Assembly (NCBI GenBank): GCA_025774935.1
Contig: JALGZK010000008.1
Span: 1 to 64,000 of the forward strand
Source of the DNA: a bacterium
GTDB lineage: Bacteria > Joyebacterota > Joyebacteria > Joyebacterales > Joyebacteraceae
Reading direction: 5' to 3'
DNA length: 64,000 nt
How positions within the stretch are numbered: the stretch's first letter is position 1; the number at the start of each line of letters is the position of its first letter. The notes beneath the pieces were generated by a model. The model was not told the DNA's origin, did no database searches, and worked only from the letters and a program-made list of their open reading frames with translations. Below are positions 31,615 to 45,041 of the stretch, one piece after another. A program made the position numbers and the translations under genes.

Positions 31615-32955
31615 CTAGAGATCGATCCCGTACTCCTTGATCTTGTTCTGGAGGGTCCGCCTGGCGATCCCGAGGATCTCGGCCGCGCGCGTGCGGTTGC
31701 CTTCGGTCTGTTTGAGGGTCTTCACGATGATGTCGCGCTCGACCTCGCGGATGGTCTTGCCCTCCCCGATGCTGTCGGCGTCGCCCTCCCCTCCCGCCGC
31801 CCGAACCTTCGCAGGAAGATGCTCGGGGAAGACGGTCTCGCCGCGGGAGAGGACGATCGCGCGCTGGATGGCGTTCTCGAGCTCGCGGACGTTGCCCGGC
31901 CAGTCGTAGTTGAGGGCCAGGCGCATGGCCTTCGGTGACATCTTCTTGGGCTTCGTGCCCTGCGAGTGGAGCCTGAGGAAGTGCTCTACCAGAAGCGGGA
32001 CGTCCTCGGAGCGGTCGCGGAGGGGCGGAATCGTTATCGACACGACGTTCAGCCTGAAGAACAGGTCCTCTCGGAACCGGCCCTCGGCGACCTCAGCCTC
32101 GAGGTCCTTGTTGGTCGCGGCGACAACGCGGACGTCGACGGTGATGTCGTTCCCTCCGCCGACGTGCTGGAACGTGTGGTCCTGCAGGAACCGGAGGAGC
32201 TTCGCCTGGAGCGCCGACGACATGTCCCCGATCTCGTCGAGAAAGACCGTCCCGCCGGAGGCGAGCTCGAACCGTCCCTTCTTCTGGCGGACCGCGCCAG
32301 TGAACGCGCCGCGCTCGTGACCGAAGAGCTCGCTCTCGAGGAGCCCCTCGGGGATCGCGGAGCAGTTGACCGCGACGAACGGCTTGCGCGCTCGGTTCCC
32401 GGAACGGTGGATCTCCTGCGCGACGACCTCCTTGCCCGTCCCGCTCTCGCCGAGAAGGAGGACGCTCGCGTCGCTGTCCGCGACGCGGTGCGCGACCTCG
32501 ATGACCTCGCGGAACCCTTCGCTCGCGCCGATGACGCCCCTCGACGGCTCCGCTTCCTCCTCCGCGCTCTCGTCCGGGGCCGCCGACGCCTCGGCGAACC
32601 TCGCGATCACACGGCGCACCTCGTCGATGTCTATGGGCTTGGTGATGTAGTCGAACGCCCCGAGCTTGAGCGTCTTCACCGCCGTCTCGACCGACGCGTA
32701 CGCCGTCATCATCACGACCCCGGTCTGGGGCGCGAGCTCGACCATCTGCTCGAGCGCCTGGACTCCGTCGATCCCGGGCATCCGGATGTCCATGATCACC
32801 AGGTCGTGGTAGCCGGACCTGAGCTTCTCGACCGCGGACTCGCCGTCGGGAGCCGTCTCGATCTCGTGCCCGTCCTCCTCGAGCACGGCCGTCAGGAGCT
32901 GGCGCACGCTCGACTGGTCGTCGACGACGAGTATCCGGAGCCGTCCGGCTTCCAT
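31615..32955 (-). CDS. zraR: ZraR/NtrC-family sigma-54-dependent response regulator
   Basis: 446-residue activator. Receiver domain (residues 7-120) with Asp12/Asp13 and phospho-acceptor Asp56 (VIMDIRMPG); AAA+ domain (about 140-380) with Walker A GESGTGKE, intact GAFTGA loop (ERGAFTGAVRQKKG), Walker B GTVFLDEIGD and the R-finger region; C-terminal Fis helix-turn-helix (EGNRTRAAEILGIARRTLQNKIKEYG). It is translated from an ATG that shares one base with the stop of the kinase gene (TGATG). Expected to drive the sigma-54 promoter in front of the ZraP-like gene. Confidence 0.95.
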   Translation of the reverse strand: MEAGRLRILVVDDQSSVRQLLTAVLEEDGHEIETAPDGESAVEKLRSGYHDLVIMDIRMPGIDGVQALEQMVELAPQTGVVMMTAYASVETAVKTLKLGAFDYITKPIDIDEVRRVIARFAEASAAPDESAEEEAEPSRGVIGASEGFREVIEVAHRVADSDASVLLLGESGTGKEVVAQEIHRSGNRARKPFVAVNCSAIPEGLLESELFGHERGAFTGAVRQKKGRFELASGGTVFLDEIGDMSSALQAKLLRFLQDHTFQHVGGGNDITVDVRVVAATNKDLEAEVAEGRFREDLFFRLNVVSITIPPLRDRSEDVPLLVEHFLRLHSQGTKPKKMSPKAMRLALNYDWPGNVRELENAIQRAIVLSRGETVFPEHLPAKVRAAGGEGDADSIGEGKTIREVERDIIVKTLKQTEGNRTRAAEILGIARRTLQNKIKEYGIDL

Positions 32956-34739
32956 CAGGCCTCCTTCGGGGCTCCCGCGGAGGGGAGCCGGATCGTGAAC
33001 GTCGTGCCCTCGCCCTTCGCGCTCGACACGGAGATGTGCCCCCCGTTCCTCTCGACGATCCTCGAGACGATCGTGAGACCGAGCCCCGTCCCTTCCGGCT
33101 TCGTCGTGAAGAACGGGTCGTACAGCTTGCCGAGCTCCTCGTCGGTCATCCCCGCGCCGGTGTCGGAGACGGAAACCGCTACCTCGCCACCCGCGATCTT
33201 TGTCTCGACCGAGAGCCTGCCCCCGCCCGACATCGCCTCGATCGCGTTCAGGATGACGTTCAGGACCGCCTGCTTGATCTGCCCGGGGTCGACGAGGGCG
33301 TCGGGAAGCTCGCTCCCGAGCGCCGCGGCGAGTTCGACCTTCCGGAACTGCGCGTCCTCGGAGACGAGAGAGATCACCTCCCCGACGACGTCGTTGACGT
33401 CGGATGGTCTCCGGTCGGGCGCGACGGGCTTCGCGAAGTCGAGGAGCTCTTGGACGACGCGGTCGAGGCGCTCGACCTCCTCGATCATGATGTCGGCGTA
33501 TCGCTCTTCCTGCGAGCCGGGCGTGAACTTGCTGCGCAGGAACTGCGCGAACCCCTTGAGGGAGCTCAGGGGGTTGCGGACCTCGTGCGCGACGCCGGCC
33601 GCCAGACGGCCGAGCGAGGCCAGGTGCCGCTCGCGCTCGACCTCCTCCTTCAGGGCCTCCATCTCCCGCAGGTCCTGGAAGAGGACGACGGTCCCCGACC
33701 TCTCACCGTCCTCGTCGGTGAGCGACGACGCGGCGAGCGCCACTGGGATCGCGTCGCCCCGGCCGCCGATCCTCGCCTCGGTCTCGAACGTGTCGTCGGC
33801 GCCGCCCATCACGCCGTGGACGCCGGCGCGGTCGCCGTCCGCGTCGAACGTCACGACCTCGTCGAACGCCTTCCCCTCGACGTCGTCGCGGGCGAGCCCG
33901 AGCAGGGACCTCGCTCGGGTGTTCACCGTCACTACGCGCGCGTCGGAGTCCACCGAGACGAGCCCGCTTCCCATGCTCTCGATCACGTTCGTCGTGTACG
34001 AGCGCATGTTCGCCAGCGCGGTCCGCACCGAACGGTAGTGCGCCATCAGGAACAGGAAATAGATCGCGATCCCGCCGACCAGAAGGAGGATGCCCGACAT
34101 CATGAACGTGTGGTTCCTCGATGCGAGGAACGCGGCCTCGAGCTCGGACGCGTCGAGACCGACGACCATGAACAGGTCGACCGGGGCGCCAGGCGGGACC
34201 GGCGTGCTGAGGAGGCTCCTCAGACGCTCGTGGATGATCTCCTCGGCCTGGATCCGGAAGAGGGACGGCGGACGGAACCTCGGGCCGCGCCTCGGGAGAG
34301 CGCGGAGGAGGGACGCGTACTCGTGGACGTTTCGCCCGTCTTCCTCGGACACGATGCTCGCCATCCGCCGGTCCTCGGGCGCGGCCAGGAGGACCTCGCG
34401 ACCCGCCCAGATGGTGCCGACCCGCTCGGGATCGCTGTGCGAGACGATCGTTCCGTCCACGTCGACGATGCCGATGTGCGCGATCTCCTCGTGCTCCGCC
34501 GCCTGCTGGAGCATGAGGTCGAGCCGCGTGCGGTCCCAGTCGGGCGCCAGGAGGCTCGCCCGGAAGGCGCCCCCGAGCGACCCGATCGCGAGGCGCGCCT
34601 GCCGGCTGAGGACGTCCTCGACCTGCCGCCTCCCCCGCTCGATGTCGCGGAAGGACGTGAAGCCGACGACGAGGGCGACCATGATGATGCCAACGACGAT
34701 GGAGGTGATCGGAAGGTAGCTCGACCTCTTCGCGGGCAT
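32955..34739 (-). CDS. zraS: ZraS-like membrane sensor histidine kinase with PAS domain
   Basis: 594-residue kinase. Membrane helix 1 (about 12-30), a periplasmic sensor domain (31-235) with the ZraS-like segment I-V-D-V-D-G-T-I-V-S-H-S-D-P-E-R-V-G and VGLDASELEAAF, membrane helix 2 (about 240-262), a PAS domain (275-375), HisKA with AAGVAHEVRNPLSSLKGFAQ (phospho-His), and HATPase_c (NAIEAMSGGG, DTGAGM, GTGLGLTIV). E. coli ZraS has the same periplasmic motif but lacks the PAS domain. ATG 34739 has GGAG eight bases upstream. A promoter and an 18-base palindrome lie in the preceding gap. Confidence 0.93.
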   Translation of the reverse strand: MPAKRSSYLPITSIVVGIIMVALVVGFTSFRDIERGRRQVEDVLSRQARLAIGSLGGAFRASLLAPDWDRTRLDLMLQQAAEHEEIAHIGIVDVDGTIVSHSDPERVGTIWAGREVLLAAPEDRRMASIVSEEDGRNVHEYASLLRALPRRGPRFRPPSLFRIQAEEIIHERLRSLLSTPVPPGAPVDLFMVVGLDASELEAAFLASRNHTFMMSGILLLVGGIAIYFLFLMAHYRSVRTALANMRSYTTNVIESMGSGLVSVDSDARVVTVNTRARSLLGLARDDVEGKAFDEVVTFDADGDRAGVHGVMGGADDTFETEARIGGRGDAIPVALAASSLTDEDGERSGTVVLFQDLREMEALKEEVERERHLASLGRLAAGVAHEVRNPLSSLKGFAQFLRSKFTPGSQEERYADIMIEEVERLDRVVQELLDFAKPVAPDRRPSDVNDVVGEVISLVSEDAQFRKVELAAALGSELPDALVDPGQIKQAVLNVILNAIEAMSGGGRLSVETKIAGGEVAVSVSDTGAGMTDEELGKLYDPFFTTKPEGTGLGLTIVSRIVERNGGHISVSSAKGEGTTFTIRLPSAGAPKEA

Positions 34740-34762
34740 GCACGCGGCTCCGTGGCGGCGGA

Positions 34763-34780
34763 GACCCGCGGCCGCGGGTC
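34763..34780. promoter_or_regulatory. Perfect 18-base palindrome in the kinase leader
   Basis: GACCCGCGGCCGCGGGTC is identical on both strands. It lies 24-41 bases before the ZraS-like start and about 20-35 bases after the predicted transcription start, a position suited to a repressor operator or an RNA hairpin. Confidence 0.4.
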
Positions 34781-34805
34781 CCCTGACTGAACGGGCGTTC
34801 TCTTC

Positions 34806-34835
34806 ATTAGACACCACGCGGCGAGCCGAGAGCAA
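34806..34835 (-). promoter_or_regulatory. Sigma-70-type promoter for the zraS-zraR pair
   Basis: Minus-strand TTGCTC (34835-34830) and TCTAAT (34811-34806), spacer 18 bases, between the ABC permease stop and the kinase start. It makes the kinase/regulator pair independent of the upstream peptide-modification operon. Confidence 0.5.
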
Positions 34836-34883
34836 GAGCAAAGCCGGAAGGAGGAGCGAAGCCGGGCGCGGGTGTCGCGGGCG

Positions 34884-35744
34884 TCAGTACTCGCCGAGCG
34901 TGCCCGCGCGCCTCGCGTGGCGATATCCCCACCCGAGCGTGAGGAGCCCGGCCACGAGCGCGGCCGATGCCGTGAGACCGAGGAGGACGAGCGGACGGAC
35001 GAGGGACGCCGGGTCGTGGTATCCGGAGAGACCGGCGCGGGCGACGCGGAGGGCGTGCGTGGTGGGAATGAGGGCGGAGAGCCCCCGGAGCCACGGCGGG
35101 AGGATGTCGACTGGGAAGTAGACGCCGCCCAGGAGGCCGGCCGCCGCGCCGAACACCCACGAGACGGGCTCGCCTTCCTTGGAGACAAGGATGACTCCCG
35201 CTGAGACGAGCCCGAAGCCGCACATCGCCGCCGCGTAGAGCACGACGGCCGCCACCGCGGCCAGCGAGAGGCAGAGCCGAACATCGAGAACGGCCGAGGC
35301 GAGAGCCAGAAGCGCCGCTCCTCCCGCGCCTGCGATCGCGAGTTCGCCGAGCCCCGACAGAACCAGGAGCGCCGGGACCGGGACGCGCGACGTCACGAGG
35401 AGCTCGAGCGTACCCTGAAGCTGCTCCCTTCTCACGGTCGCGCGGAACGACGACAGCCCGGCGGCGGCGATGCCGTGGACGATGACGCCGACGATCACGA
35501 ACGACGTGTAGCTCGTCCCGTACCGGTCGAGGAACCCGCTGCCGGCGGCGTCGACGACGCGGCCCACGAACGAGAAAGTGACGAGCGAGAGGACGAGCGA
35601 CGCGAGCCCGAGCGAGAGCTTCGCCCGGTAGCTCGCGTAGGTCGCAGCGCTCCTGACGACGAACGCCCACGCGACGCGGAGGACGGCCGCGAGGGTGGAA
35701 CCTCTCCAGAGGGCGAGCGCGTCGCCGTGCCCGGCGGCGCTCAC
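34884..35744 (-). CDS. ABC-2-type exporter permease of the peptide cluster
   Basis: 286-residue membrane protein with six hydrophobic segments in the ABC-2 arrangement (SLGLASLVLSLVTFSFVGRV, FVIVGVIVHGIAAAGLSSF, a glycine/alanine-rich central pair, GEPVSWVFGAAAGLLGGVYF, and a C-terminal pair). The segment GVYFPVDILPPWLRGLSALIPTTHAL is the classic ABC-2 signature before the last helix. Start GTG 35744 overlaps the stop of the ATPase gene (GTGA), so the two subunits are translationally coupled. It probably exports the mature peptide product or confers self-protection. Last gene of the operon. Confidence 0.9.
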   Translation of the reverse strand: MSAAGHGDALALWRGSTLAAVLRVAWAFVVRSAATYASYRAKLSLGLASLVLSLVTFSFVGRVVDAAGSGFLDRYGTSYTSFVIVGVIVHGIAAAGLSSFRATVRREQLQGTLELLVTSRVPVPALLVLSGLGELAIAGAGGAALLALASAVLDVRLCLSLAAVAAVVLYAAAMCGFGLVSAGVILVSKEGEPVSWVFGAAAGLLGGVYFPVDILPPWLRGLSALIPTTHALRVARAGLSGYHDPASLVRPLVLLGLTASAALVAGLLTLGWGYRHARRAGTLGEY

Positions 35745-36406
35745 GACCGCATCCCGCTGCCGATGCGGACGACGCTGTCGCAGCTGGAAGCCTCGGCGAG
35801 ATCGTGCGTCGCGAGGAGGACCGTGCCGCCGCGCGCTGCCCATCGTGCGAACGCGCGCCGGAGGAGCGTCCGGCCATGCGCGTCGACCGACGCGAACGGT
35901 TCGTCGAGAACGAGGATCCGGGGCCGAGCGATCATCGCCCGCGCGACCGACAGCCGGGCGAGCGCTCCCCGCGACAGCCTCCTCGTGGGCACGCCGAGGC
36001 ACGCGACGAGTCCGAGCTCGTCGGCCACGCTCTCGATCGCGAGCGCGATCCTCTTTCTCGGGACGTTTTCGAGAGTCGCGAAGAAAGCGAGGTTGTGGCG
36101 CGCCGTGAGCCGCCAGTAGAACGACCGCTTGGTGCCGAGGGAGACGCCGATCATCCTGCGAACGTGCAGGGACTCCGAGACGACGTTGTGCCCCGCCACC
36201 ATCGCGAGACCCTCGGTCGGCTCCACGAGCGTCGCGACGATTTTGAGCGCGGTGGTCTTACCGGCGCCGTTCGGTCCGACGAGCGCCGAGGTCTCACCCG
36301 CACCGACGGATAGAGAGAAGGGCGCCAGCGCTTCGGCGGGGCGCCCGCTCTTGCGGTAGACCTTGCGGACGTCCTCGAGCCTGACCGCGTCGGCGCTGCG
36401 GCTCAC
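35741..36406 (-). CDS. ABC exporter ATP-binding subunit of the peptide cluster
   Basis: 221-residue ATPase: Walker A GPNGAGKTT, Q-loop region with GVSLGTKRSFYWRLTARHNL, signature motif degenerate as RLSRGALARLSVARAM (usual LSGGQ), Walker B RILVLDEPFASVD, and switch His in LLATHDLAEAS. It is of the ABC-2 (DrrA/CcmA-like) type and lacks the usual C-terminal extension, hence short. GTG 36406 overlaps the stop of the FG-GAP protein gene (GTGA). No C39 peptidase domain is fused to it, so leader removal must use another enzyme. Confidence 0.92.
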   Translation of the reverse strand: MSRSADAVRLEDVRKVYRKSGRPAEALAPFSLSVGAGETSALVGPNGAGKTTALKIVATLVEPTEGLAMVAGHNVVSESLHVRRMIGVSLGTKRSFYWRLTARHNLAFFATLENVPRKRIALAIESVADELGLVACLGVPTRRLSRGALARLSVARAMIARPRILVLDEPFASVDAHGRTLLRRAFARWAARGGTVLLATHDLAEASSCDSVVRIGSGMRS

Positions 36407-37824
36407 GAGCCCTCCCCGGCCGTGCGGACGGTCAACCCCGTCGACCAGACGCCCACCCGGCCCTCCCGGAGAGACGCGACCACGATCTCCAACCGCCCGT
36501 CGCCGTCGAGATCGACGACCGCCACGCCGCCCGAGCCTCCCGCACCGGGCAGGCCCAGCACGTCGACCACGGTCCCGTCCGCGCCGTCGACCACGAAGAC
36601 GCGGTCCTTCACGTACGCGACGAGCGCCGAGGCCGCCCCCCCGCCGCTCCCGTACCGCGGCAGTCCGACGGGAACGCACCGCTCGACGATCTTGCCGTCC
36701 ACGTCGAGCCGCCAGAGCTCGCTCCCGGTGCGCGGGTTCCACGCGTACAGGAACCCGTCGCTGCATCCGAAGACGAGCTCTCGCCCGGGCCCGTCCCGGA
36801 GGTCGGCGTCGGCCATGGCGATGACCGGCTCTCCCGTCCGCGCGAGCACCTCCTTCATGCCGCAGGGCACGTCGTTCCGGGCGACGTGCGCTGCGTGGGA
36901 CTCCGCGCCGAACGGCACCGTGCGCGCGAGCATCTCCCCGGTCGCTCCATCGAGAAGCACGACCGCCCCTGCGAAGCACCCGACCGCCACTTCGCGAGCG
37001 CCGTCGCCGAGAAGATCGGCGACCACCGGATCGCTGCTCGCGGCGCCTTCGGGGACGAGCGTCCCCTTCTCGCCGAGGACCGTCCGCCAGAGCGGCTCGC
37101 CCGAGGGGGCGAAGCACGCGAGGACGTTCATGTTCTCGACGACGAGCACCTCGTCGAGACCGTCACCGTCGACGTCCTCGAGCACCGGGCGGCTGAAGCC
37201 GTTGTCGAACCGGCCCTCGGCGGCCGCCGCCTCGTTCGTCCAGAGCTCGAGAGACCCGATGACGCCGGCCCCGGCGCCGTCGCGCATCCCCGCGCCGGAC
37301 AGCGCGACCAGCGTCTCGTTCCGCTCCTCCCCGACCGTACACACGACGTCCGGGACGCCGTCGCCGTCCAGGAGCCCGACGGCGATCTCGCCGGCGACCC
37401 CGGGCAACCGTTGCTCGGACATCACGTTCCCGCTCGCACCGTCGAGAACGAGGAGCTCGTCCCCGACCGCGGCCAGGATCTCCGCGCGCCCGTCCGCGTC
37501 GAGATCTGCGACGTCGACCACCGCGCGTGTTGCGAATTCCCTGCGCCAGATCTCGACGCCGTCCGCGCCCACGAGCACTAGATCGCTCGGTTCCTGCCTG
37601 CAGCGCCTGACGACGAGGAGATCGACGCCGTCCGAGGCGAACCGCCCCAGCGTGACGACGGTGACCCCGCGGGCGGGCAGCCCGAGGGGCGTCTCCCGCA
37701 CGAGCTCGCACGGCGGGAGCCGTAAGGACGAGGCCGCCGCGGCACTCCCCACGGGCGCACCGCCCGCCGCCCCCGCGGCGACCGCGACCGCCAGGACCGC
37801 CTGAACCAGTCTCGCGCGTCTCAT
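36403..37824 (-). CDS. Secreted FG-GAP/VCBS-type beta-propeller protein
   Basis: 473-residue exported protein. Signal peptide MRRARLVQAVLAVAVAAGAA. The mature part holds repeated calcium-loop motifs of the FG-GAP type: DLDADGRAEIL, DGDGVPDVV, DVDGDGLDEVL, and DLDGDGRLEIVV, plus related loops at GDGAREVAV and GPGRELVFG. The spacing (50-70 residues) indicates a seven-bladed propeller, and W-x-x-[ED]-[FL] (PQQ-like) patterns such as ELWRLDVDGKIV occur between them. GGAGGGAG precedes ATG 37824. It is 35 bases after the third peptide gene and overlaps the ABC ATPase gene, so it belongs to the RiPP-like operon; an extracellular binding, display or processing role is inference. Confidence 0.87.
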   Translation of the reverse strand: MRRARLVQAVLAVAVAAGAAGGAPVGSAAAASSLRLPPCELVRETPLGLPARGVTVVTLGRFASDGVDLLVVRRCRQEPSDLVLVGADGVEIWRREFATRAVVDVADLDADGRAEILAAVGDELLVLDGASGNVMSEQRLPGVAGEIAVGLLDGDGVPDVVCTVGEERNETLVALSGAGMRDGAGAGVIGSLELWTNEAAAAEGRFDNGFSRPVLEDVDGDGLDEVLVVENMNVLACFAPSGEPLWRTVLGEKGTLVPEGAASSDPVVADLLGDGAREVAVGCFAGAVVLLDGATGEMLARTVPFGAESHAAHVARNDVPCGMKEVLARTGEPVIAMADADLRDGPGRELVFGCSDGFLYAWNPRTGSELWRLDVDGKIVERCVPVGLPRYGSGGGAASALVAYVKDRVFVVDGADGTVVDVLGLPGAGGSGGVAVVDLDGDGRLEIVVASLREGRVGVWSTGLTVRTAGEGS

Positions 37825-37859
37825 GGTTCTCCCTCCTCCGCCGGCGCCGAGGGGCGGAC

Positions 37860-38030
37860 TCAGTAGTCGAGGTGACAGAGGTCGTCGGAAGCGCACCCGG
37901 TGACGTCGGACCCGCAGTAGTCGACCGCGCTGCATCCTCCCCAGTCGATGAAGACGCGGCAGATCTCCGTGCCCCCGGTCCGCCCGGCGCCGCGCCGCGC
38001 GACCCCGTTCACCTGCTCGAGATGTCTCAT
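37860..38030 (-). CDS. Putative RiPP precursor peptide 3 (Cys/Asp-rich)
   Basis: 56-residue peptide. Leader MRHLEQVNGVARRGAGRTGG is followed by a core from about residue 22 with five cysteines, Cys24, 33, 39, 46 and 52, each followed by Asp: C-x4-D29, C-x3-D37, C-x2-D42, C-x2-D49 (or x3 to D50) and C-x2-D55. It shares F-I-D-W-G-x-C and the C-terminal C-x-x-D-Y with peptide 2, and M-x-H-L-x-x-x-N-G at the start with both others. ATG 38030 has a purine-rich GAGAGGGGCGGG site upstream. It is too short for routine gene calling. Cys-x(2-4)-Asp pairs beside a radical SAM/SPASM maturase point to Cys-Asp thioether crosslinks; that is inference. Confidence 0.82.
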   Translation of the reverse strand: MRHLEQVNGVARRGAGRTGGTEICRVFIDWGGCSAVDYCGSDVTGCASDDLCHLDY

Positions 38031-38063
38031 GCGTCCCGCCCCTCTCCTGCCGTCCGTGCCGAC

Positions 38064-38237
38064 CTAGTAGTCGATCAGACAGATGTCGTCGTGGCTGCAG
38101 TCCGCGAAGTCGAACGCGCACTGATCGATGCTGTCGCAGTCGCCCCAGTCGATGAAGATGTAGCAGGCGAACGGGACGCTCGCCATCTGCGTCGTTCCCG
38201 TCTCCCGCCCCCCGTTCGCGAGCCTGAGATGCTTCAA
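38064..38237 (-). CDS. Putative RiPP precursor peptide 2 (Cys/Asp-rich)
   Basis: 57-residue peptide read from a TTG start at 38237, seven bases after a near-perfect GGAAGGAGGT ribosome site. Leader MKHLRLANGGRETGTTQMAS is followed by a core with Cys25, 34, 40, 47 and 53. Each has a downstream Asp: C-x4-D30, C-x3-D38, C-x2-D43, C-x2-D50 (x3 to D51) and C-x2-D56. The first nine residues are identical to peptide 1. The core has no lysine or arginine and is strongly acidic. The gene sits 38 bases after peptide 1 and 33 before peptide 3. Confidence 0.84.
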   Translation of the reverse strand: MKHLRLANGGRETGTTQMASVPFACYIFIDWGDCDSIDQCAFDFADCSHDDICLIDY

Positions 38238-38275
38238 CCGCACCACCTCCTTCCACTCATCGTCCCCCGCCGAAC

Positions 38276-38455
38276 TCACGTCGTGTCGACGATGCACCCG
38301 TCGTGACTGACGCAATCGCTCTCGAAGTCCAGCAACCAGCAGGTGTCCGACACCGCACATCCCGAGTAGTCGACCAGGCACAGGTCGCGCTTGGAGCGGC
38401 CGGCAGTCGGCCCGCCCCCCGGACCCCTGCCGTTCGCAAGCCTCAGGTGCTTCAC
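38276..38455 (-). CDS. Putative RiPP precursor peptide 1 (Cys/Asp-rich)
   Basis: 59-residue peptide read from GTG 38455, preceded by GGGAGGTGGGGAAC. Leader MKHLRLANGRGPGGGPTAGR is followed by a core with Cys26, 33, 39, 48 and 54 and the pairs C-x2-D29, C-x3-D37, C-x3-D43, C-x3-D52 and C-x2-D57; the C-terminus is D-T-T instead of D-Y. The core differs in sequence from peptides 2 and 3 while the five-cysteine, Asp-following layout is kept, the usual sign of a conserved modification acting on variable cores. It is the first gene after the maturase (41-base gap). Confidence 0.84.
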   Translation of the reverse strand: MKHLRLANGRGPGGGPTAGRSKRDLCLVDYSGCAVSDTCWLLDFESDCVSHDGCIVDTT

Positions 38456-38496
38456 GTTCCCCACCTCCCCTCCACGTTCTCCACCCCGGTTCCCTG

Positions 38497-41001
38497 TCAC
38501 CTCCGCGCACGTGACGTCCGCGACTCGCGCCCTGTCGCGATCTCCGGCCTGGCGCTTCCTCTGGCCGCCGCCGCGAGCGCGCTCCGCTGCTCGTCCGGAA
38601 GCGACGCGTAGATCCACATCGAGAGCTCGAAGATCCTCCGCTTGAGCCTGCACCGCGGGGAGTCCGGGCCGACCGCGTCCGGTCCGACGGCATCCGGCCC
38701 GGCGGCGTCCGCGCCGGCCGCCTCGAGGTCGTGCACGCAGGGGCCGCCGCAGAGGTGGACGGCCCAACAGCCGGCGCATACGTTCACTGCATCTCGGAAC
38801 CTGCGGAGGATGTTGCCGACCCTCTCGCGGTCCAGACCGCGCTCCACGTCCCCCACCGCGAACCCCGGGTTTCCGGCGAACCGGTGGCAGAACGAGAGGG
38901 CGCCGGAGGGATCGACCGAGACGTACCTCGTCCCCGCGCCGCAGGGCGTCCGCCGGCGCGCACCGGTCTCGAGTGCGAGTACCGTCTCGGTGAAGTTGCC
39001 CGTCGACGGCCGGTCCCCACGCGCGACGGCAGCGAGCTCTCCCTCCGCGAGCTCCTCGAACTCCAGCGCGAGTCGGTCAGCGAACTCCCGGCTCATCGCG
39101 GCGCCGCTCACTGGAGCGAAGTGGACGACGTACAACCCGAGACCGCGAAGGTGCTCCGCGATCTCCGCGAGCGGCCGCGAGTCCGGCGTGACCGTCGCCC
39201 GGGCGCCGACTCTCATCCCTACAGGGAGCTCCCTCAGGTTGCGGACGATCGTGTCGTACGATCCGGTGCCGTCACGGAAGACGCGATGGGCGTCGTGCTC
39301 CGCGGCACCCCCGTCGACGCTCACAAGAGCGCGCACGCCACTTCCGTGAAGGAACGAAGCGTTCTCCGGCGTAAGGAGCGTCCCGTTCGTCGTCATGTGG
39401 AAGGAGACGGAGCGGCCCTCGGCTCCCGCGCGCCGCCTCGCGTAGTCGACGATCTCTCCGATGAGCGCGGGCTCGAGGAGCGGCTCCCCGCCGAAGAACA
39501 CGATCGAGACGCGGGCCTCGCCCGCCGACTCGGAGAGAAGGAGGTCGACGGCGCGGAACGCAGTCGTCCTAGACATGCTCGAACCGTCGCGGGCTCCGGG
39601 CCTGCCCTCGCGCACGCGTCCCCCCGACGAGAGGTAGCAGTAGTCGCAGCTCAGGTTGCAGCTGTCGGTGAGGCCGAGGGCGACGGCGGTCAGACCGGAC
39701 GAGGCTCCGGCCGCGGCCCAGGCGTCGCACGGAGACCTGAGGTCCCCCGGACCGCTCCCCTTCGGCCACGGCTCCGGGCGCGCGAGCGCCCGGAGCTCAC
39801 CCAGGACCTCGCCCACGACGTTCTTCCCCGCGTTCATGTTGAGCACGCCGAGCCCGCCGGGATCAGAGCCGGCTCGGAGCCACTCGACAACGTCCAGGAC
39901 CGCGGCGTCGGCCTCGAAGAAGAGCCCCGAGTCGACGTCCAGCACGAGACCCCGACTGCGGACCTCGAACGCGTGGACCTTCCGGGCGAGCTCGGGAGGA
40001 ACGCGTGCGTCTCGGGTGGGCACGGCCGGCGCGGCGTTCCCCGAAGCGGCCGCGGTCACCGATACGCGTCGCGTGACCCATCCGAGCCTCTCCCTCGACT
40101 CGTCCCGCCGACGCTCGAGGTGGGAGGCGAGCCCCTCGGCCCCGAAGGCCAGCGCCGCCTCGGCCGCCATCGCGTAGTGACGGTCGATCTCGCCGGCGAC
40201 GAGCGCGAGCGTCGCCGCTCCCGCCTGCGAGAGGAGGACGTCCCCCACCCGGCTCGCGGGCGGCGGTTCTTCGAGGCGCGCCGCGGCGGCGAGCAGCCAC
40301 GACGGTACGGACCACCGTCCCGCCTCCAGGTCGGCCTCGAGATCCTCGAGGTCGTCCGCGAGCTGGTAGGCGGTGTGGAACCTGTCGATCACGCTCTCCA
40401 TCGCGGGAAGCGCGTCGTTCCTCCCGGACAGCGCGGCGACCGCAGCGGGGCACACCTTGAGCGGCGACATCCCACGGCCGAGCATCTCGAGCGTCGCGGG
40501 AAGCGCGCCCCCCGAGACCGCGTCCCGCCCCTCCGGTGACTCGAGGACCTCCTTCCGCCACTCGAGGCTGGCGAAATACTCGCGCAGATACCCCACGAGC
40601 GGCTCGACGAAGGAGAAGGCGAACGAGCCGTCCCCGCGGAAGAGCCTCCCGTACTCGAGCATGAAGAGGATCAGCGAGCGGTCGGAGAGACAGCAGTCCG
40701 ACGGCGAGGGCCGAGCGTCGCCGTCCATCTCGTCGTCCTGCGCGAGGAAGTGGGCCGCGCCGAACGCGTTCCCGAGTGCCATGGTCCTCGCGGCGTCGAG
40801 AGCGCCCTCGAACGGAAGGGCCTCCGCGAGGAAGAACGGAAGCCTGAGAACGAAGTTGTCCCTCGTGATCCCGCGCTCGAACGCCGGCGCCCCGGCGGAA
40901 CCGGAGAGCTCCGGCATGGCGGATCTGAAGCCGATCGCAACGCGGCGCAGTTCGGCGCGGTGGTCGATCGCCGACGAGATCGCTTCCGTGGTCGAGCGCA
41001 T
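38497..41001 (-). CDS. Isoprenoid-synthase-like / radical SAM-SPASM fusion, peptide maturase
   Basis: 834-residue protein with three parts. Residues 40-310 resemble a class I isoprenoid synthase helical domain, with two Asp-rich motifs, DDEMD (89-93, in FLAQDDEMDGD) and DDLED (216-220, in YQLADDLEDLEADL), at the expected spacing. Residues 338-415 (KVHAFEVRSRGLVLDVDSGL) match the N-terminal domain of SCIFF-type maturases. Residues 435-800 are radical SAM/SPASM: Cys448, 452 and 455 (CNLSCDYC) for the SAM cluster, GGEP at 504-507, and auxiliary-cluster cysteines 687, 705, 742, 745, 751, 755 and 784 around CAGCWAVHLCGGPC. An A/V-G-P-D repeat (about 766-780) interrupts the SPASM end. Expected to form thioether bonds in the three adjacent peptides. 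ATG 41001 has only a weak ribosome site. Confidence 0.9.
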   Translation of the reverse strand: MRSTTEAISSAIDHRAELRRVAIGFRSAMPELSGSAGAPAFERGITRDNFVLRLPFFLAEALPFEGALDAARTMALGNAFGAAHFLAQDDEMDGDARPSPSDCCLSDRSLILFMLEYGRLFRGDGSFAFSFVEPLVGYLREYFASLEWRKEVLESPEGRDAVSGGALPATLEMLGRGMSPLKVCPAAVAALSGRNDALPAMESVIDRFHTAYQLADDLEDLEADLEAGRWSVPSWLLAAAARLEEPPPASRVGDVLLSQAGAATLALVAGEIDRHYAMAAEAALAFGAEGLASHLERRRDESRERLGWVTRRVSVTAAASGNAAPAVPTRDARVPPELARKVHAFEVRSRGLVLDVDSGLFFEADAAVLDVVEWLRAGSDPGGLGVLNMNAGKNVVGEVLGELRALARPEPWPKGSGPGDLRSPCDAWAAAGASSGLTAVALGLTDSCNLSCDYCYLSSGGRVREGRPGARDGSSMSRTTAFRAVDLLLSESAGEARVSIVFFGGEPLLEPALIGEIVDYARRRAGAEGRSVSFHMTTNGTLLTPENASFLHGSGVRALVSVDGGAAEHDAHRVFRDGTGSYDTIVRNLRELPVGMRVGARATVTPDSRPLAEIAEHLRGLGLYVVHFAPVSGAAMSREFADRLALEFEELAEGELAAVARGDRPSTGNFTETVLALETGARRRTPCGAGTRYVSVDPSGALSFCHRFAGNPGFAVGDVERGLDRERVGNILRRFRDAVNVCAGCWAVHLCGGPCVHDLEAAGADAAGPDAVGPDAVGPDSPRCRLKRRIFELSMWIYASLPDEQRSALAAAARGSARPEIATGRESRTSRARR

Positions 41002-41074
41002 GGATGTCCCGAAGGGGATCGTGCCGGGGCGTTCAGCTGGTGGGGACTGGGAAGTGTCGTTTCTGGATGAGGAC

Positions 41075-41122
41075 CGGCCGGCAGGGCAGTTGCGGGAGAA
41101 TCATCTGCGTTCCTGCCGGCCG
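41075..41122. repeat. 11-base perfect inverted repeat in the maturase leader
   Basis: CGGCCGGCAGG (41075-41085) and CCTGCCGGCCG (41112-41122) are exact reverse complements separated by 26 bases. They lie between the predicted sigma-54 start site (about 41145) and the maturase start codon, so they could be a repressor operator or form a leader hairpin that limits translation. Confidence 0.6.
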
Positions 41123-41155
41123 TTGTGGGCCAGCTCCATCCCCAGAAAGGTGAGA

Positions 41156-41171
41156 AGCAAGACGCTGACCA
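41156..41171 (-). promoter_or_regulatory. Sigma-54-type (-24/-12) promoter of the RiPP-like operon
   Basis: Minus strand reads TGGTCAGCGTCTTGCT. GG (-24) and GC (-12) are ten bases apart and the TTGCT half is intact; nine of twelve informative consensus positions match. It lies 155 bases before the maturase start, and the adjacent upstream gene encodes a sigma-54 activator. A short hairpin CGCGG-AGAA-CCGCG (41195-41208) lies just upstream. Confidence 0.6.
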
Positions 41172-41224
41172 GAGTTGCTGCTTAGGATGGAGCCCGCGGA
41201 GAACCGCGTTGTGGTGCTGCTTGT

Positions 41225-41948
41225 GTGCGCGCCTTTCGGTGGGCGCTGACCGTATTCGAATCCTCTGTCTATGTTGGTTACAGCTCCGGTGCTGATCGAG
41301 CTGTGGAGTTCTCAGCCGAGCACGGGCGATGCGATACCGATGAGCAGGATCACGACCATTACCTTTATTCTCACTCTCGCCGCGCTCGGCATAACTGCTA
41401 CCTCTATGTCATCTCCCCTGTACTGCTCGAGGAGCCCTAGAGTCCGGAAGAGAGAAGCGAACCAAAGAGCGACCGGACTCGCCCCCCCTGCTTTGTTAAC
41501 ACCCTGGCCGCCTCTCCCTTCCATATTTAGTTGTCAACTACACCCCCCTCTACCGCATAGGTCGTGCCAGAAACGGGTGAATGAGTCCTCAGCCACTCGA
41601 AAATCGCTCAGTTCTAACTGCCACACCTACAGCAGGTTACAGAGGTGGCCCGAGATTCACTCAGGTTCGTGACCGGGCCTCATGGCAAAGATTCGACGGT
41701 AATTGAGGTGCCCATGTGGACAGCCACCGTAACTTGCTCATGTATAGGGAGTTGTGGAACCGTCGAGATTTTGACGCCTCGTCTGGTTTTGGACGCGCTG
41801 GAAGGCCTGACGAGGGGAGGGTCGGGGCGCCGCGGGGCTGCGCTGGAGGCGCCCCGCGGACACGAAAACGCCCCGGTCAAGCCCGGGGCCGCGTGGTGGG
41901 ATCTGGTGTGAACTCGGCGCAGCCGGCGCCGGGCCGGGGTCTCCGCCC
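41225..41948. other. Lower-GC intergenic region, no convincing gene
   Basis: About 720 bases with visibly lower GC than the flanks (about 41,250-41,650). Short frames occur on both strands but none has a ribosome site, a recognisable domain or neighbour support. A 13-base palindrome, TAGTTG-T-CAACTA (41528-41540), could be a regulator site, possibly an enhancer for the sigma-54 promoter about 360 bases downstream. Near 41,820-41,890 a GC-rich stretch with repeated CGCCCCG/CGGGGCG elements could act as the terminator of the activator gene. Confidence 0.4.
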
Positions 41949-44900
41949 CTACCCGAGACCGTACTTCTTCATCTTCGCGTGGAGGCCGGTCCTCGAGAGA
42001 CCGAGGACGTCGGCCGCCGCCTGCTTGTTCCAGCCGGTCCGGGAGAGCGCTTCCAGGATGCGGCTCTTCTCGAGCGCCTCGACCTCGTTCTTGAGCGAGC
42101 GGCGGTGCGGCTCTTCGTCGCCCAGGGTGATCTCATAGCGGTTCCGGAGCTCCGGGCTGATCTTGTCGATCCCGATCATCTCCCCGTCGGCGGCCAGCGC
42201 GACGCCGCGCCGCACTTCGTTCTCGAGCTCCCTCACGTTGTTCCCGCGCCAGTCGTACCGCTGGAAGATCTCGCGGACCTCGCGGCTGAACCCGGGGATG
42301 TGCTTCCCCTCGCGCTTCGCGTAGAGCTCGCGGAAGTGCTCCATGAGGACCGGGACGTCGTCCGGGCGGTCGCGGAGAGGCGGCACCTGGATCACGACCG
42401 CGCAGAGGCGGTAGAAGAGGTCGCGCCTGAACCGCCCGGCCTTGACCTCCTCCGCCAGGTCCTTGTTGCTCGCGGAGATGACGCGCGCGTCGCTCGTCCT
42501 CGTGACGCTCTCCCCCACCCGGCGGTACTCGCCGTTCTGGAGGAACCGGAGGAGCTTCACCTGGAGCTGCTGGCTCATCTCGCCGATCTCGTCGAGGAAG
42601 AGCGTTCCGCCGGCCGCGGCCTGCACGAGGCCCTCGCGGTCGCGGTCCGCGTCGGTGAACGCGCCCTTCACATGACCGAAGAGCTCGCTCTCCTGCAGGT
42701 TCGGAGGGATCGCACCCGCGTTCAGCGCGACGAACTTCCCCGTCCGGCTGCGGCCGTCGACGTGGACGGCGCGCGCGATGAGTTCCTTACCGGTCCCGGA
42801 CTCGCCGCGGATGACGATCGGGACGTGGCTGTCCTTTAGGCGGTCGATGCTCGAGAGGATGCGCAGCATCTCCGCGTCGCGGGTGATGAGGCCCGCGTGG
42901 TTCGGCGAGTCGCCGAGCTCCTGTGCGAGCTCCCCGTTCTCCCTCCACGCGACCGACTCGCCGACCCTGGAGAACGCGAGGCCGAGCATCCGCGACGCTG
43001 CGGCGACGAACTCGACGTCACTCTGCGTGAACGGCGCGGGCCGCTCGGACTTCATCCGGTCGGCGTAGAGCAGATAAGTCGTGCCGCGCGCACCGCTGAT
43101 CTCGGCGGGAATGAGGGCCACGGCGCCGACGCCCGGCGCGAAGTAGGCGTCCGCGGAGCGCGGGTCGCTCACGATGAGCGGCCTCGTGTGTCCGCGGTTC
43201 CCGACGGTCGTGCGCACGAAGCGGGTGACCTCGGCCACCCCGCGTCCCGTGCGGTCGACCGACGTGGCGACGGCGGGACCGGTCTCCTCCGTGAGCGAGT
43301 AGAGGACCAGGCGGTTGGCCGGGACCGACGCCGCGATCTCGTTCGCGAACTCGTTCAGGTCCTCCGGCTTCGGCTCGGTCGTCTCGAGGAACCGGTACCC
43401 CTCGGCGATCGTGGAGTAGCGTCCCTGGCGCGAGACGCCGGCCTCCTCGAGCTCCGCGTCGAGCTCCTTCAGGATGGCGTCGATCTCGGCGAGGCCCTCG
43501 CTGTCGTGGCTCACCTCCATCTTGAGGCGCGCCCGGTCGAGCCACGTCCTCGCCCGGTCGAGCTGGCCGCCACGCTGGAGTGCCTTGCCGCGCTCGAGCT
43601 CGCAGCGAGCCACCCAGTCGCCGGCGCCGATCCTCGTGAAGATGGCCTCGGCGGCGGAGAACCGCGCCTCGATCCTGTCCACGGGGAGGTCGCCCGGAGG
43701 CGACGAGTCGCGCATGCCGACGGCGTCGGCGAACGCGGTCTTGGCGGTCTGGAACGACTCGCCGGTCCTGCGAAGCATGTCCTCGGCGCGGTTCACGAGG
43801 ACCTCGGCGGCGGTCCGCTCGCCCTTGGCGTAGCAGATGCTCGCGAGGACCCTCAGGAACGCCCCCTCCTCGAGCCTGTCGCCCAGCTCGCGGGAGAGCT
43901 TCACGCCGTCCGAGCAGTCGCGCTCGGCGTCCTCGATCCTGCCGAGCGTGAGGAGCGCCTCGGCGCGCCTCCGGAGGACCTCCCCGACGACGTCGCCGTT
44001 CGAGGCGAGGCGGTACGCGCAGCCGAGCGCCCTGTCCAGCGTCGCGAGAGCCTGCTCGTACTCGCCCTGGTCCATCTCCAGCTCGCCGATGTACTCGAGC
44101 GCGAGCGCCTCAGCCCTGAGATACCCCTTCTCCCTCGCCACGCGGAGCGCGTTCTCGAAGAGCTCGCGCGCCCGGCCCGTTTCGCGGCGTACGCGGTACA
44201 CGTTCCCGAGCGCGGTCTTCGCGGCGACGAGTCCTCGGACGGCGCCGATCCGCGAGTACGTCTCCTTGGCCTCGGTGAGCATCTCCTCCGCTTCCGCCCA
44301 TCGAGACAGGCGGTAGAGCGTGATGCCCACGTTCGTCAGGCGATCGGCGATCGCCATCGAACGCCCCTGCTTCCGGTCGAGCTCGAGCGCGCTCTCGAGG
44401 TACTCGAGGGCGCCGTTCAGGTCGCCGGTACGCTTGGCGAGAATGCCGAGGTTGTTGTAGGCCGCAGCGAGGCCTGACTCGCTCGCGAGCCTCTTCTGGG
44501 AGACGAGATAGTCGGTGAAGTAGTCCCTGGCGGCCTCGGTGTTCCCGATCTCGGCGTTCGCGATGCCGAGCATCTTGCCTGCCTCAGCCAGAAGATGGCT
44601 GTCGGGACTGGTCCTGAGTGCGTCGTACGCCTTCTGAGCCGCGCGCAGCGCTTCTTCGTAGCGCCCGCTCTCGATCTCGATCCTCGCGAGGACGACGTTC
44701 GCCTCGGCCCACGACGTCGCTTCCTCGTCCTCGAGCTCCAGATCGTCGAGCTTCGCGCAGTGTGCTCTCGCCTTGACGTAGTTGCCGAGCCCCAGGTGGC
44801 ACTTCGCGATCCGGACGCAGAGCCCCGCTACCTCGTCGTCGGAGAGCGTGGAACCCAGCTCTTCGCCGGCGGCGCGGCTGAAGTACCCGAGCGCGTCCGT

Positions 44901-45041
44901 GTAGCTGTCGGACTCGAGATAGACGTCGCCGAGTCGGATCGCGGTCAGCGCGGCTTCCCGCGCGCTCCGCGACTCCATTGCTCGGCGAAACGCCTCGAGC
45001 ATCTCGCGTTCGGGCTTATCGTCCGGTCGTCGTTCAGCCAC
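41949..45041 (-). CDS. TPR-GAF-AAA+ sigma-54-dependent activator
   Basis: 1030-residue regulator. About 560 N-terminal residues form TPR repeats (for example ALEYLESALELDRKQGRS and EQALATLDRALGCAYRLA), a GAF-like domain spans about 575-720, the AAA+ sigma-54 domain about 725-965 (Walker A GESGTGKELIA near 746, Walker B GTLFLDEIGE), and a Fis helix-turn-helix the end (WNKQAAADVLGLSRTGLHAK). Two deviations: the sigma-54 contact loop is GAFTDA (793-798) rather than GAFTGA, and the segment normally W-P-G-N-V-R-E-L reads W-R-G-N-N-V-R-E-L with one extra residue. No receiver domain, so the signal is probably sensed by the TPR/GAF part. It lies next to the sigma-54 promoter of the peptide operon. 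GTG start with GAGG seven bases upstream. Confidence 0.93.
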   Translation of the reverse strand: MAERRPDDKPEREMLEAFRRAMESRSAREAALTAIRLGDVYLESDSYTDALGYFSRAAGEELGSTLSDDEVAGLCVRIAKCHLGLGNYVKARAHCAKLDDLELEDEEATSWAEANVVLARIEIESGRYEEALRAAQKAYDALRTSPDSHLLAEAGKMLGIANAEIGNTEAARDYFTDYLVSQKRLASESGLAAAYNNLGILAKRTGDLNGALEYLESALELDRKQGRSMAIADRLTNVGITLYRLSRWAEAEEMLTEAKETYSRIGAVRGLVAAKTALGNVYRVRRETGRARELFENALRVAREKGYLRAEALALEYIGELEMDQGEYEQALATLDRALGCAYRLASNGDVVGEVLRRRAEALLTLGRIEDAERDCSDGVKLSRELGDRLEEGAFLRVLASICYAKGERTAAEVLVNRAEDMLRRTGESFQTAKTAFADAVGMRDSSPPGDLPVDRIEARFSAAEAIFTRIGAGDWVARCELERGKALQRGGQLDRARTWLDRARLKMEVSHDSEGLAEIDAILKELDAELEEAGVSRQGRYSTIAEGYRFLETTEPKPEDLNEFANEIAASVPANRLVLYSLTEETGPAVATSVDRTGRGVAEVTRFVRTTVGNRGHTRPLIVSDPRSADAYFAPGVGAVALIPAEISGARGTTYLLYADRMKSERPAPFTQSDVEFVAAASRMLGLAFSRVGESVAWRENGELAQELGDSPNHAGLITRDAEMLRILSSIDRLKDSHVPIVIRGESGTGKELIARAVHVDGRSRTGKFVALNAGAIPPNLQESELFGHVKGAFTDADRDREGLVQAAAGGTLFLDEIGEMSQQLQVKLLRFLQNGEYRRVGESVTRTSDARVISASNKDLAEEVKAGRFRRDLFYRLCAVVIQVPPLRDRPDDVPVLMEHFRELYAKREGKHIPGFSREVREIFQRYDWRGNNVRELENEVRRGVALAADGEMIGIDKISPELRNRYEITLGDEEPHRRSLKNEVEALEKSRILEALSRTGWNKQAAADVLGLSRTGLHAKMKKYGLG

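Follow-up and report, generated by a model that had tools for sequence, protein, structure and literature searches.

A probable QhpC/QhpD-like peptide-maturation operon with a fused, predicted prenyltransferase-fold domain in a candidate bacterial phylum

Introduction

Cysteine can be linked to acidic residues of small proteins by radical SAM enzymes, two of which are the closest described counterparts of the system treated here. QhpD forms three Cys-to-Asp/Glu thioethers in QhpC (PMC7876137). In CX3D motifs PapB links Cys to Asp through a thioether; CXnD spacings with n = 0–6 are tolerated, and the RiPP recognition element (RRE; RiPP, ribosomally synthesized and post-translationally modified peptide) of the enzyme is the proposed binding site of a leader Asn (PMC9413430). 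In qhp operons on Paracoccus and Pseudomonas plasmids the alpha subunit gene comes first, followed by those for QhpD, QhpC, the beta propeller, an S8 protease and an ABC transporter. The locus analysed in this work belongs to a stretch of 64,000 nucleotides of bacterial DNA (contig JALGZK010000008.1, positions 1 to 64,000; hereafter the window), located on contig C27 of a genome of 3.24 Mb that is 96% complete. With a probability of about 0.62, it is read as a QhpC/QhpD-type peptide-maturation and export operon, in which thioether-bearing peptides would dock on a propeller protein and the N-terminal domain of the maturase (N-domain) would bind a polyprenyl diphosphate.

The operon was compared across the 20 genomes of the host phylum, which comprise one family and eight genera. 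This phylum is taken to be Candidatus Effluviviacota, a deep-sea and cold-seep bacterial phylum, in whose description RiPPs are not mentioned (PMC11323493). In the window, seven genes occupy positions 34884–41001 of the minus strand, on which all features given below are also encoded: the maturase, three short Cys/Asp peptides, the propeller, an ABC ATPase and an ABC permease. The gaps from the maturase to the propeller measure 44, 38, 33 and 35 bases, followed by two 4-base overlaps (propeller/ATPase and ATPase/permease). A first-pass annotation of this DNA had proposed a single operon of seven same-strand genes, all of which are present, but the end that it assigned, 41171, extends into the non-coding leader, the maturase starting at 41001, and it had missed a conserved promoter, RNA motif and mini open reading frame (mini-ORF) upstream.

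The maturase and its precursor peptides

The fused maturase (834 aa, 38497–41001) is composed of the N-domain, an RRE-like region, a radical SAM core and a SPASM domain. The QhpD/PapB-like part, which spans RRE, radical SAM and SPASM (aa 341–762, 38716–39981), carries the radical SAM motif CNLSCDYC, and the SPASM cysteines (C-X13-G-X4-C ... CX2CX5CX3C ... C) are kept throughout the maturase alignment. CteB (5wgg) aligns over the whole of this part with an E of 2.9e-42, while QhpD of Paracoccus pantotrophus shares 31% identity over 440 residues, RRE included. The best NCBIfam models were those of PapB (NF047865, 257 bits, E 2.5e-76), QhpD (TIGR03906, 251.8 bits, E 1.1e-74), the nif11-type maturase (210 bits) and the SCIFF maturase (TIGR03974, 166.9 bits). 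All four scores lie below the curated cut-offs (340, 453 and 425 bits for PapB, QhpD and SCIFF, respectively), and the QhpD model was over its cut-off in none of the 20 genomes. The assignment to the thioether-forming RRE-radical SAM-SPASM enzymes made in the first-pass annotation is borne out, but not the SCIFF-type affinity that it had proposed, since QhpD and PapB are closer (252 and 257 bits versus 167). In a tree of the radical SAM core, the Effluviviacota enzymes were monophyletic (100/100) and adjoined QhpD (82/90), a weak placement because of the few outgroups and long branches. No CXnD peptide was found beside the closest plasmid radical SAM proteins, from Streptomyces and Bradyrhizobium.

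The three precursor genes follow the maturase. Peptide A (59 aa, 38276–38452, with a start of the TTG/GTG type, here a GTG codon at 38453–38455) has the leader MKHLRLANG and a core of five Cys and five invariant Asp spaced CX2D, CX3D, CX3D, CX3D and CX2D. Peptide B (38064–38237, with a TTG start or, alternatively, a GTG at 38243) has the same leader and a core of the form CYIFIDWGDC...CLIDY spaced CX4D, CX3D, CX2D, CX3D and CX2D. Peptide C (37860–38030) is a B-like paralogue. Across 17 A, 15 B and 4 C sequences, the core is unchanging at the five Cys, the five Asp and a few neighbours, namely DY in A and, in B, CYI, DWG and the DY at the C-terminus. When A, B and C are aligned jointly, the invariant columns are reduced to the leader Asn, the five Cys and the five Asp. 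The leader plus Cys/Asp core anticipated from the sequence is therefore present and its pattern is invariant in relatives, with five core Cys in each peptide instead of the six first counted. A divergent A sequence standing outside the joint alignment (L042) has Ser at the position of the leader Asn. Furthermore, in genera g4 and g5 (L034–L038 and L040) peptide A contains a sixth core Cys (GCGC) that lacks an Asp partner at +3 to +5.

These peptides are genuine genes and not chance open reading frames, because orthologues occupy the same slot in 19 of the 20 genomes, a Shine-Dalgarno-like GGAG/GAGG precedes the type A starts, the ratio of nonsynonymous to synonymous substitution rates (dN/dS) within genera is 0.05–0.58, and the pairing of Cys with Asp exceeds that of shuffled sequences. 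An Asp was found at +3 to +5 of 181 of the 189 core Cys, whereas 2000 shuffles averaged 74 and never exceeded 96. This statistic pools related, non-independent sequences, the single peptides of the window alone giving p values of 0.005–0.03. The peptides match no Pfam or NCBIfam family.

According to the mechanism proposed, the RRE of the fused enzyme would bind the leader MKHLxxAN of each peptide, and the radical SAM/SPASM part would link each of the five Cys to the Asp 3–5 residues downstream as a thioether, with the loss of 2 H per bond and a compact polycyclic core as the product. This Cys-Asp cross-linking is strongly suggested by the homology with QhpD and PapB together with the invariant Cys/Asp pairs. 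The spacings, mostly CXnD with n = 2–4, fall inside the range that PapB accepts. It might be argued that the peptides bind a metal or a cluster, or are modified otherwise, for instance as alpha-carbon sactionines, given that both Cys and Asp can coordinate metals and that sactionine makers such as RumMC are among the scoring radical SAM/SPASM families. This is improbable, however, as the two best-scoring families both target Asp or Glu and every Cys has its own invariant Asp.

The fused N-terminal domain

The first 316 residues of the maturase (40054–41001) gave no Pfam or NCBIfam model above cut-off, and a fold prediction was therefore needed. The AlphaFold2 model, built from 17 sequences (predicted local distance difference test 86, predicted template modelling score 0.86), adopts a class I isoprenoid synthase/trans-prenyltransferase fold. 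Among solved structures it comes closest to polyprenyl and geranylgeranyl diphosphate synthases, with polyprenyl synthases throughout the list. Foldseek matched it to octaprenyl synthase 3wjo with an E of 2.7e-4, and VIA-align superposed it on 4jyx with a Z of 22.3 over 275 residues (root-mean-square deviation 3.2). When, independently of the model, a sequence profile of the domain was compared with PDB chains, prenyl synthases made up 20 of the 22 weak matches, the best with an E of 0.0067. The first-pass annotation had recognised that the maturase is a fusion but not the partner, which is predicted here to be this prenyltransferase-fold domain. As far as could be checked, a fusion of this kind with a radical SAM enzyme is undescribed in the open-access literature. 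None was found outside the phylum in a pattern scan of 84,980 species, which recovered 17 of the 19 other known members of the fusion and may therefore have missed more distant ones.

The N-domain shares with the trans-polyprenyl diphosphate synthases (4jyx) and with MoeN5 (5b00) both the fold over 275 residues and the Asp-rich metal motifs, here D89xxxD93 and D216DxxD220xxxD224. Asp89, Asp93, Asp216, Asp217, Asp220, Asp224 and Lys182 are invariant in the 17 sequences; in the first motif, the second Asp is variable. In an alignment with the two ordinary polyprenyl synthases of the same genome, both Asp motifs coincide, but the GGKR and RRG of the isopentenyl diphosphate (IPP) site are missing. 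The domain also differs from those synthases in being part of a radical SAM enzyme and in having no family match above cut-off, its score for PF00348 (polyprenyl synthase) lying below the Pfam threshold. A diphosphate-binding, prenyltransferase-like site without chain elongation may be inferred. The Asp/Mg motifs would probably bind an allylic polyprenyl diphosphate, the least certain step of the mechanism, either to prenylate the peptide or to keep the enzyme close to the membrane or to its substrate.

The domain could also be pictured as a degenerate isoprenoid-synthase fold, which serves only as a scaffold, a dimerisation module or a membrane contact and takes no part in prenyl chemistry. 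To this possibility somewhat less than an even chance is given. It would explain the loss of GGKR and RRG and the variable second Asp of the first motif, and a genome which already has two ordinary polyprenyl synthases is in keeping with it. Nevertheless, the outer Asp residues of the first motif, the DDxxD of the second and Lys182 remain invariant across genera at 36–53% identity, as would be expected of a retained diphosphate/Mg site. Prenyl chemistry by the N-domain, suggested by the kept Asp/Lys site, is regarded as possible. The further step, by which one enzyme would both cross-link and prenylate, five Cys-Asp thioethers and a polyprenyl group yielding a lipidated, exported polycyclic subunit as a core trait of the phylum, is considered rather unlikely.

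Relation to qhp and other described systems

The propeller gene (36403–37824) encodes an exported protein with a signal peptide and FG-GAP/PQQ repeats, a hydrophobic signal segment being found upstream in the relatives that were read. The fold is WD40/BamB-like and 8-bladed, the number of blades having been judged from matches to 8-bladed structures. C237, C283, C354 and H310 are invariant, which suggests a metal or covalent site. Export would be carried out by a DrrA/DrrB-like ABC-2 pair, consisting of a DrrA/CcmA-like ATPase (35741–36406) and a DrrB-like permease (34884–35744). As had been noted from the window, propeller and exporter form part of the gene set.

The resemblance to qhp is found at several levels. 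The order of maturase, peptides, propeller and ABC exporter parallels QhpD-QhpC-QhpB-(QhpE)-QhpF, and in both cases a small peptide rich in Cys and acidic residues precedes the propeller gene, which in turn precedes an ABC exporter. The RRE-radical SAM-SPASM enzyme QhpD is homologous to the maturase over the 440 aa mentioned. The QhpC leaders MKHLIPAN, MKHFTPAN, MKHLTPAN and MKHLKPIN resemble MKHLRLAN and its close variants here, the small peptides adjoining the maturase showing the pattern MKH[LF]xxxN. Taken together, the QhpD homology and the leader match point to a common descent of this peptide-enzyme pair with QhpC/QhpD. On the other hand, the peptides here number two or three, are shorter and each contain five CXnD units; the exporter is an ABC-2 pair, and a prenyltransferase-fold domain is fused to the maturase. 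It was also claimed at first that no described family has this gene set. In fact, no Pfam or NCBIfam family was found for the peptides or the N-domain, nor the fusion outside the phylum, but the claim has to be qualified because the layout of the qhp operon is parallel.

Among the other systems, freyrasin (PapA-PapB) has in common with the locus the CXnD repeats, the leader Asn and a maturase, PapB, whose family model gives the radical SAM core its highest score (257 bits). It differs in the six CX3D units of PapA, compared with five CXnD units of mixed spacing here, in the rest of the operon and domain architecture, and in the maturase falling below the family cut-off (340 bits). The ranthipeptide class as a whole offers the same combination of CXnD/E precursor motifs and a radical SAM/SPASM enzyme. 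The layout of RRE, radical SAM and SPASM is that of the SCIFF maturase CteB; SCIFF peptides, however, have six Cys in 45 residues whereas the cores here have five, and an exporter and a propeller are present in this locus.

In the proposed pathway, the ABC-2 exporter would carry the modified peptides across the inner membrane, where they would serve the Sec-exported propeller as ligands or small subunits, like the gamma subunit of quinohemoprotein amine dehydrogenase (QHNDH); this docking is suggested because the gene order parallels qhp. Several observations weigh against the overall interpretation. The scores of the maturase for the QhpD and PapB models fall below the NCBI cut-offs, and the leader resembles that of QhpC over a short stretch only (in a single hhalign comparison, probability 10.6 and E 0.0029). 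The diheme alpha subunit of QHNDH (PF09098) was detected in none of the 20 genomes, the positive control being detected in Thermus composti. There is no QhpE-type leader protease between 34884 and 41001, the part of the genome that was searched for it. No relation of the propeller to QhpB could be detected, its putative docking partnership with the peptides is drawn only from gene order, and catalysis by the N-domain is putative, the IPP-binding residues being gone and the score lying below the Pfam cut-off.

A propeller occupies the same slot as QhpB, but its equivalence to QhpB found no support, profile comparison giving a probability of 0.2 and the fold matches being to generic BamB/WD40 propellers. 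Moreover, the peptides had no match to the QhpC gamma family (PF08992) in hmmscan, none was found in a genome search run without a positive control, and QhpG is absent from the operon. QHNDH itself was thus ruled out, by the absence of its alpha subunit from the phylum and of any QhpC-family match for the peptides. With no protease in the operon and no detectable relation of the propeller to QhpB, the locus is to be understood as a QhpC/QhpD-like pair and not as QHNDH.

Conservation across the phylum and role of the product

The maturase was found in all 20 genomes, and the operon slot is identical in every locus long enough to tell, with the sigma-54 regulator on one side and a two-component pair on the other. 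A profile built from 11 peptides detected Cys/Asp peptides in 19 of the 20 genomes, the exception being a genome 57% complete whose contig stops within the maturase; the same profile revealed no copies in these genomes beyond those of the operon. By tblastn, A and B, plus C in genera g1 and g2, follow the maturase at the same place. Related loci consequently keep the small genes, but the three precursors reported from the window are confined to g1 and g2, most genera having two (A and B) and g6 only type A. In genome G016 (L042, L013) a second copy of the operon region, 93.5% identical, is present on other contigs and reflects either a recent duplication or a mixture of strains; this genome has peptide A without B.

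This distribution bears on the role of the product. A secreted, Cys-Asp cross-linked ranthipeptide, acting as a bacteriocin or signal, with the propeller as immunity, sensor or delivery protein and the two-component pair sensing the peptides, would account for the ranthipeptide-type precursors and maturase, the drug-exporter-like ABC pair, the several peptides per operon and the sCache domain of the adjacent sensor kinase. Typical bacteriocins are patchy and fast-changing, whereas the locus is universal, single, syntenic and under purifying selection across the phylum, its cores nearly unvarying, and the exporter is not of the protease type. A natural product of this sort is accordingly thought unlikely. 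A structural or cofactor-like role of the peptides is favoured over that of a bacteriocin because of this universality, the synteny and the slow change.

Upstream leader region and flanking regulators

Judged from the sequence of the upstream region, a sigma-54 promoter probably drives the operon, whose transcript would begin with a structured leader RNA. A sigma-54-type -24/-12 promoter (TGGCACGACCTATGCG / TGGCACNNNNNNTGC, 41554–41569) matches the consensus TGGCAC-N6-TGC and, in the window, lies about 550–570 bases upstream of the maturase; its aligned position is conserved in the phylum. It is followed by a structured RNA motif of 77 nt (41446–41522), with a covarying outer stem, a near-invariant hairpin GGGGCGAGTCCGGTCGCTCT and a core GGGGCGAGTCCGGTCGCTCTTTGG. 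Two-sided changes occur in 6 of 21 pairs, and the motif has a z of -3.19. The motif has one copy per genome at the locus in all 20 genomes, and two in g6, where the operon is duplicated; none was found in these genomes outside the operon copies, and Rfam returned only chance-level matches and no family. In locus L038 (genome G015) the otherwise invariant hairpin shows three changes (GAGAGCGGTCGGTC) with one stem pair broken, perhaps because of an error in the assembly or because the copy has decayed.

Further downstream, a mini-ORF (41312–41392) encodes 26 aa, MPSAARVRIKVMVVILLIGIASPVLG, with a conserved hydrophobic C-terminus and a codon-like substitution pattern: 15 of 19 third codon positions vary, compared with 5 first and 5 second positions. 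Across the phylum the hydrophobic mini-protein measures 24–26 aa and reads MPSAARV...VILLIGIASPVLG, ending in (V)ILLIGIASP(F/V)LG. The product is possibly a small membrane subunit or a signal. Between the mini-ORF and the maturase there is a conserved leader hairpin (GGCCGGCAGG...CCTGCCGGCC, 41074–41121). A second leader structure at 41105–41190, taken alone, was no better than shuffled sequences (z -0.57) and was rejected.

The interval from the activator to the maturase is 0.9–1.2 kb across the phylum. This activator, a TPR/sigma-54 AAA/Fis protein (41949–45041), is directly upstream in every sufficiently long locus and is the probable regulator of the operon. A histidine kinase and an NtrC-type response regulator (31615–34841) lie directly downstream as conserved neighbours in the phylum, and may play a role in the operon.

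Conclusions

If the proposed maturation takes place, RiPP-style thioether chemistry would belong, in this candidate phylum, to a trait that is universal and vertically kept, and not to a natural product of patchy occurrence. Unreported as far as could be checked, the joining of an isoprenoid-synthase fold and a radical SAM maturase in one protein would be a new enzyme architecture. Regulation can be studied alongside, since an unlisted structured RNA and a conserved mini-protein belong to the same locus. Finally, leader, enzyme and gene order connect the locus to the gamma subunit of a tryptophylquinone dehydrogenase, and through this tie to QhpC it becomes testable how cross-linked subunits of the QhpC type arose and how widely they are used.

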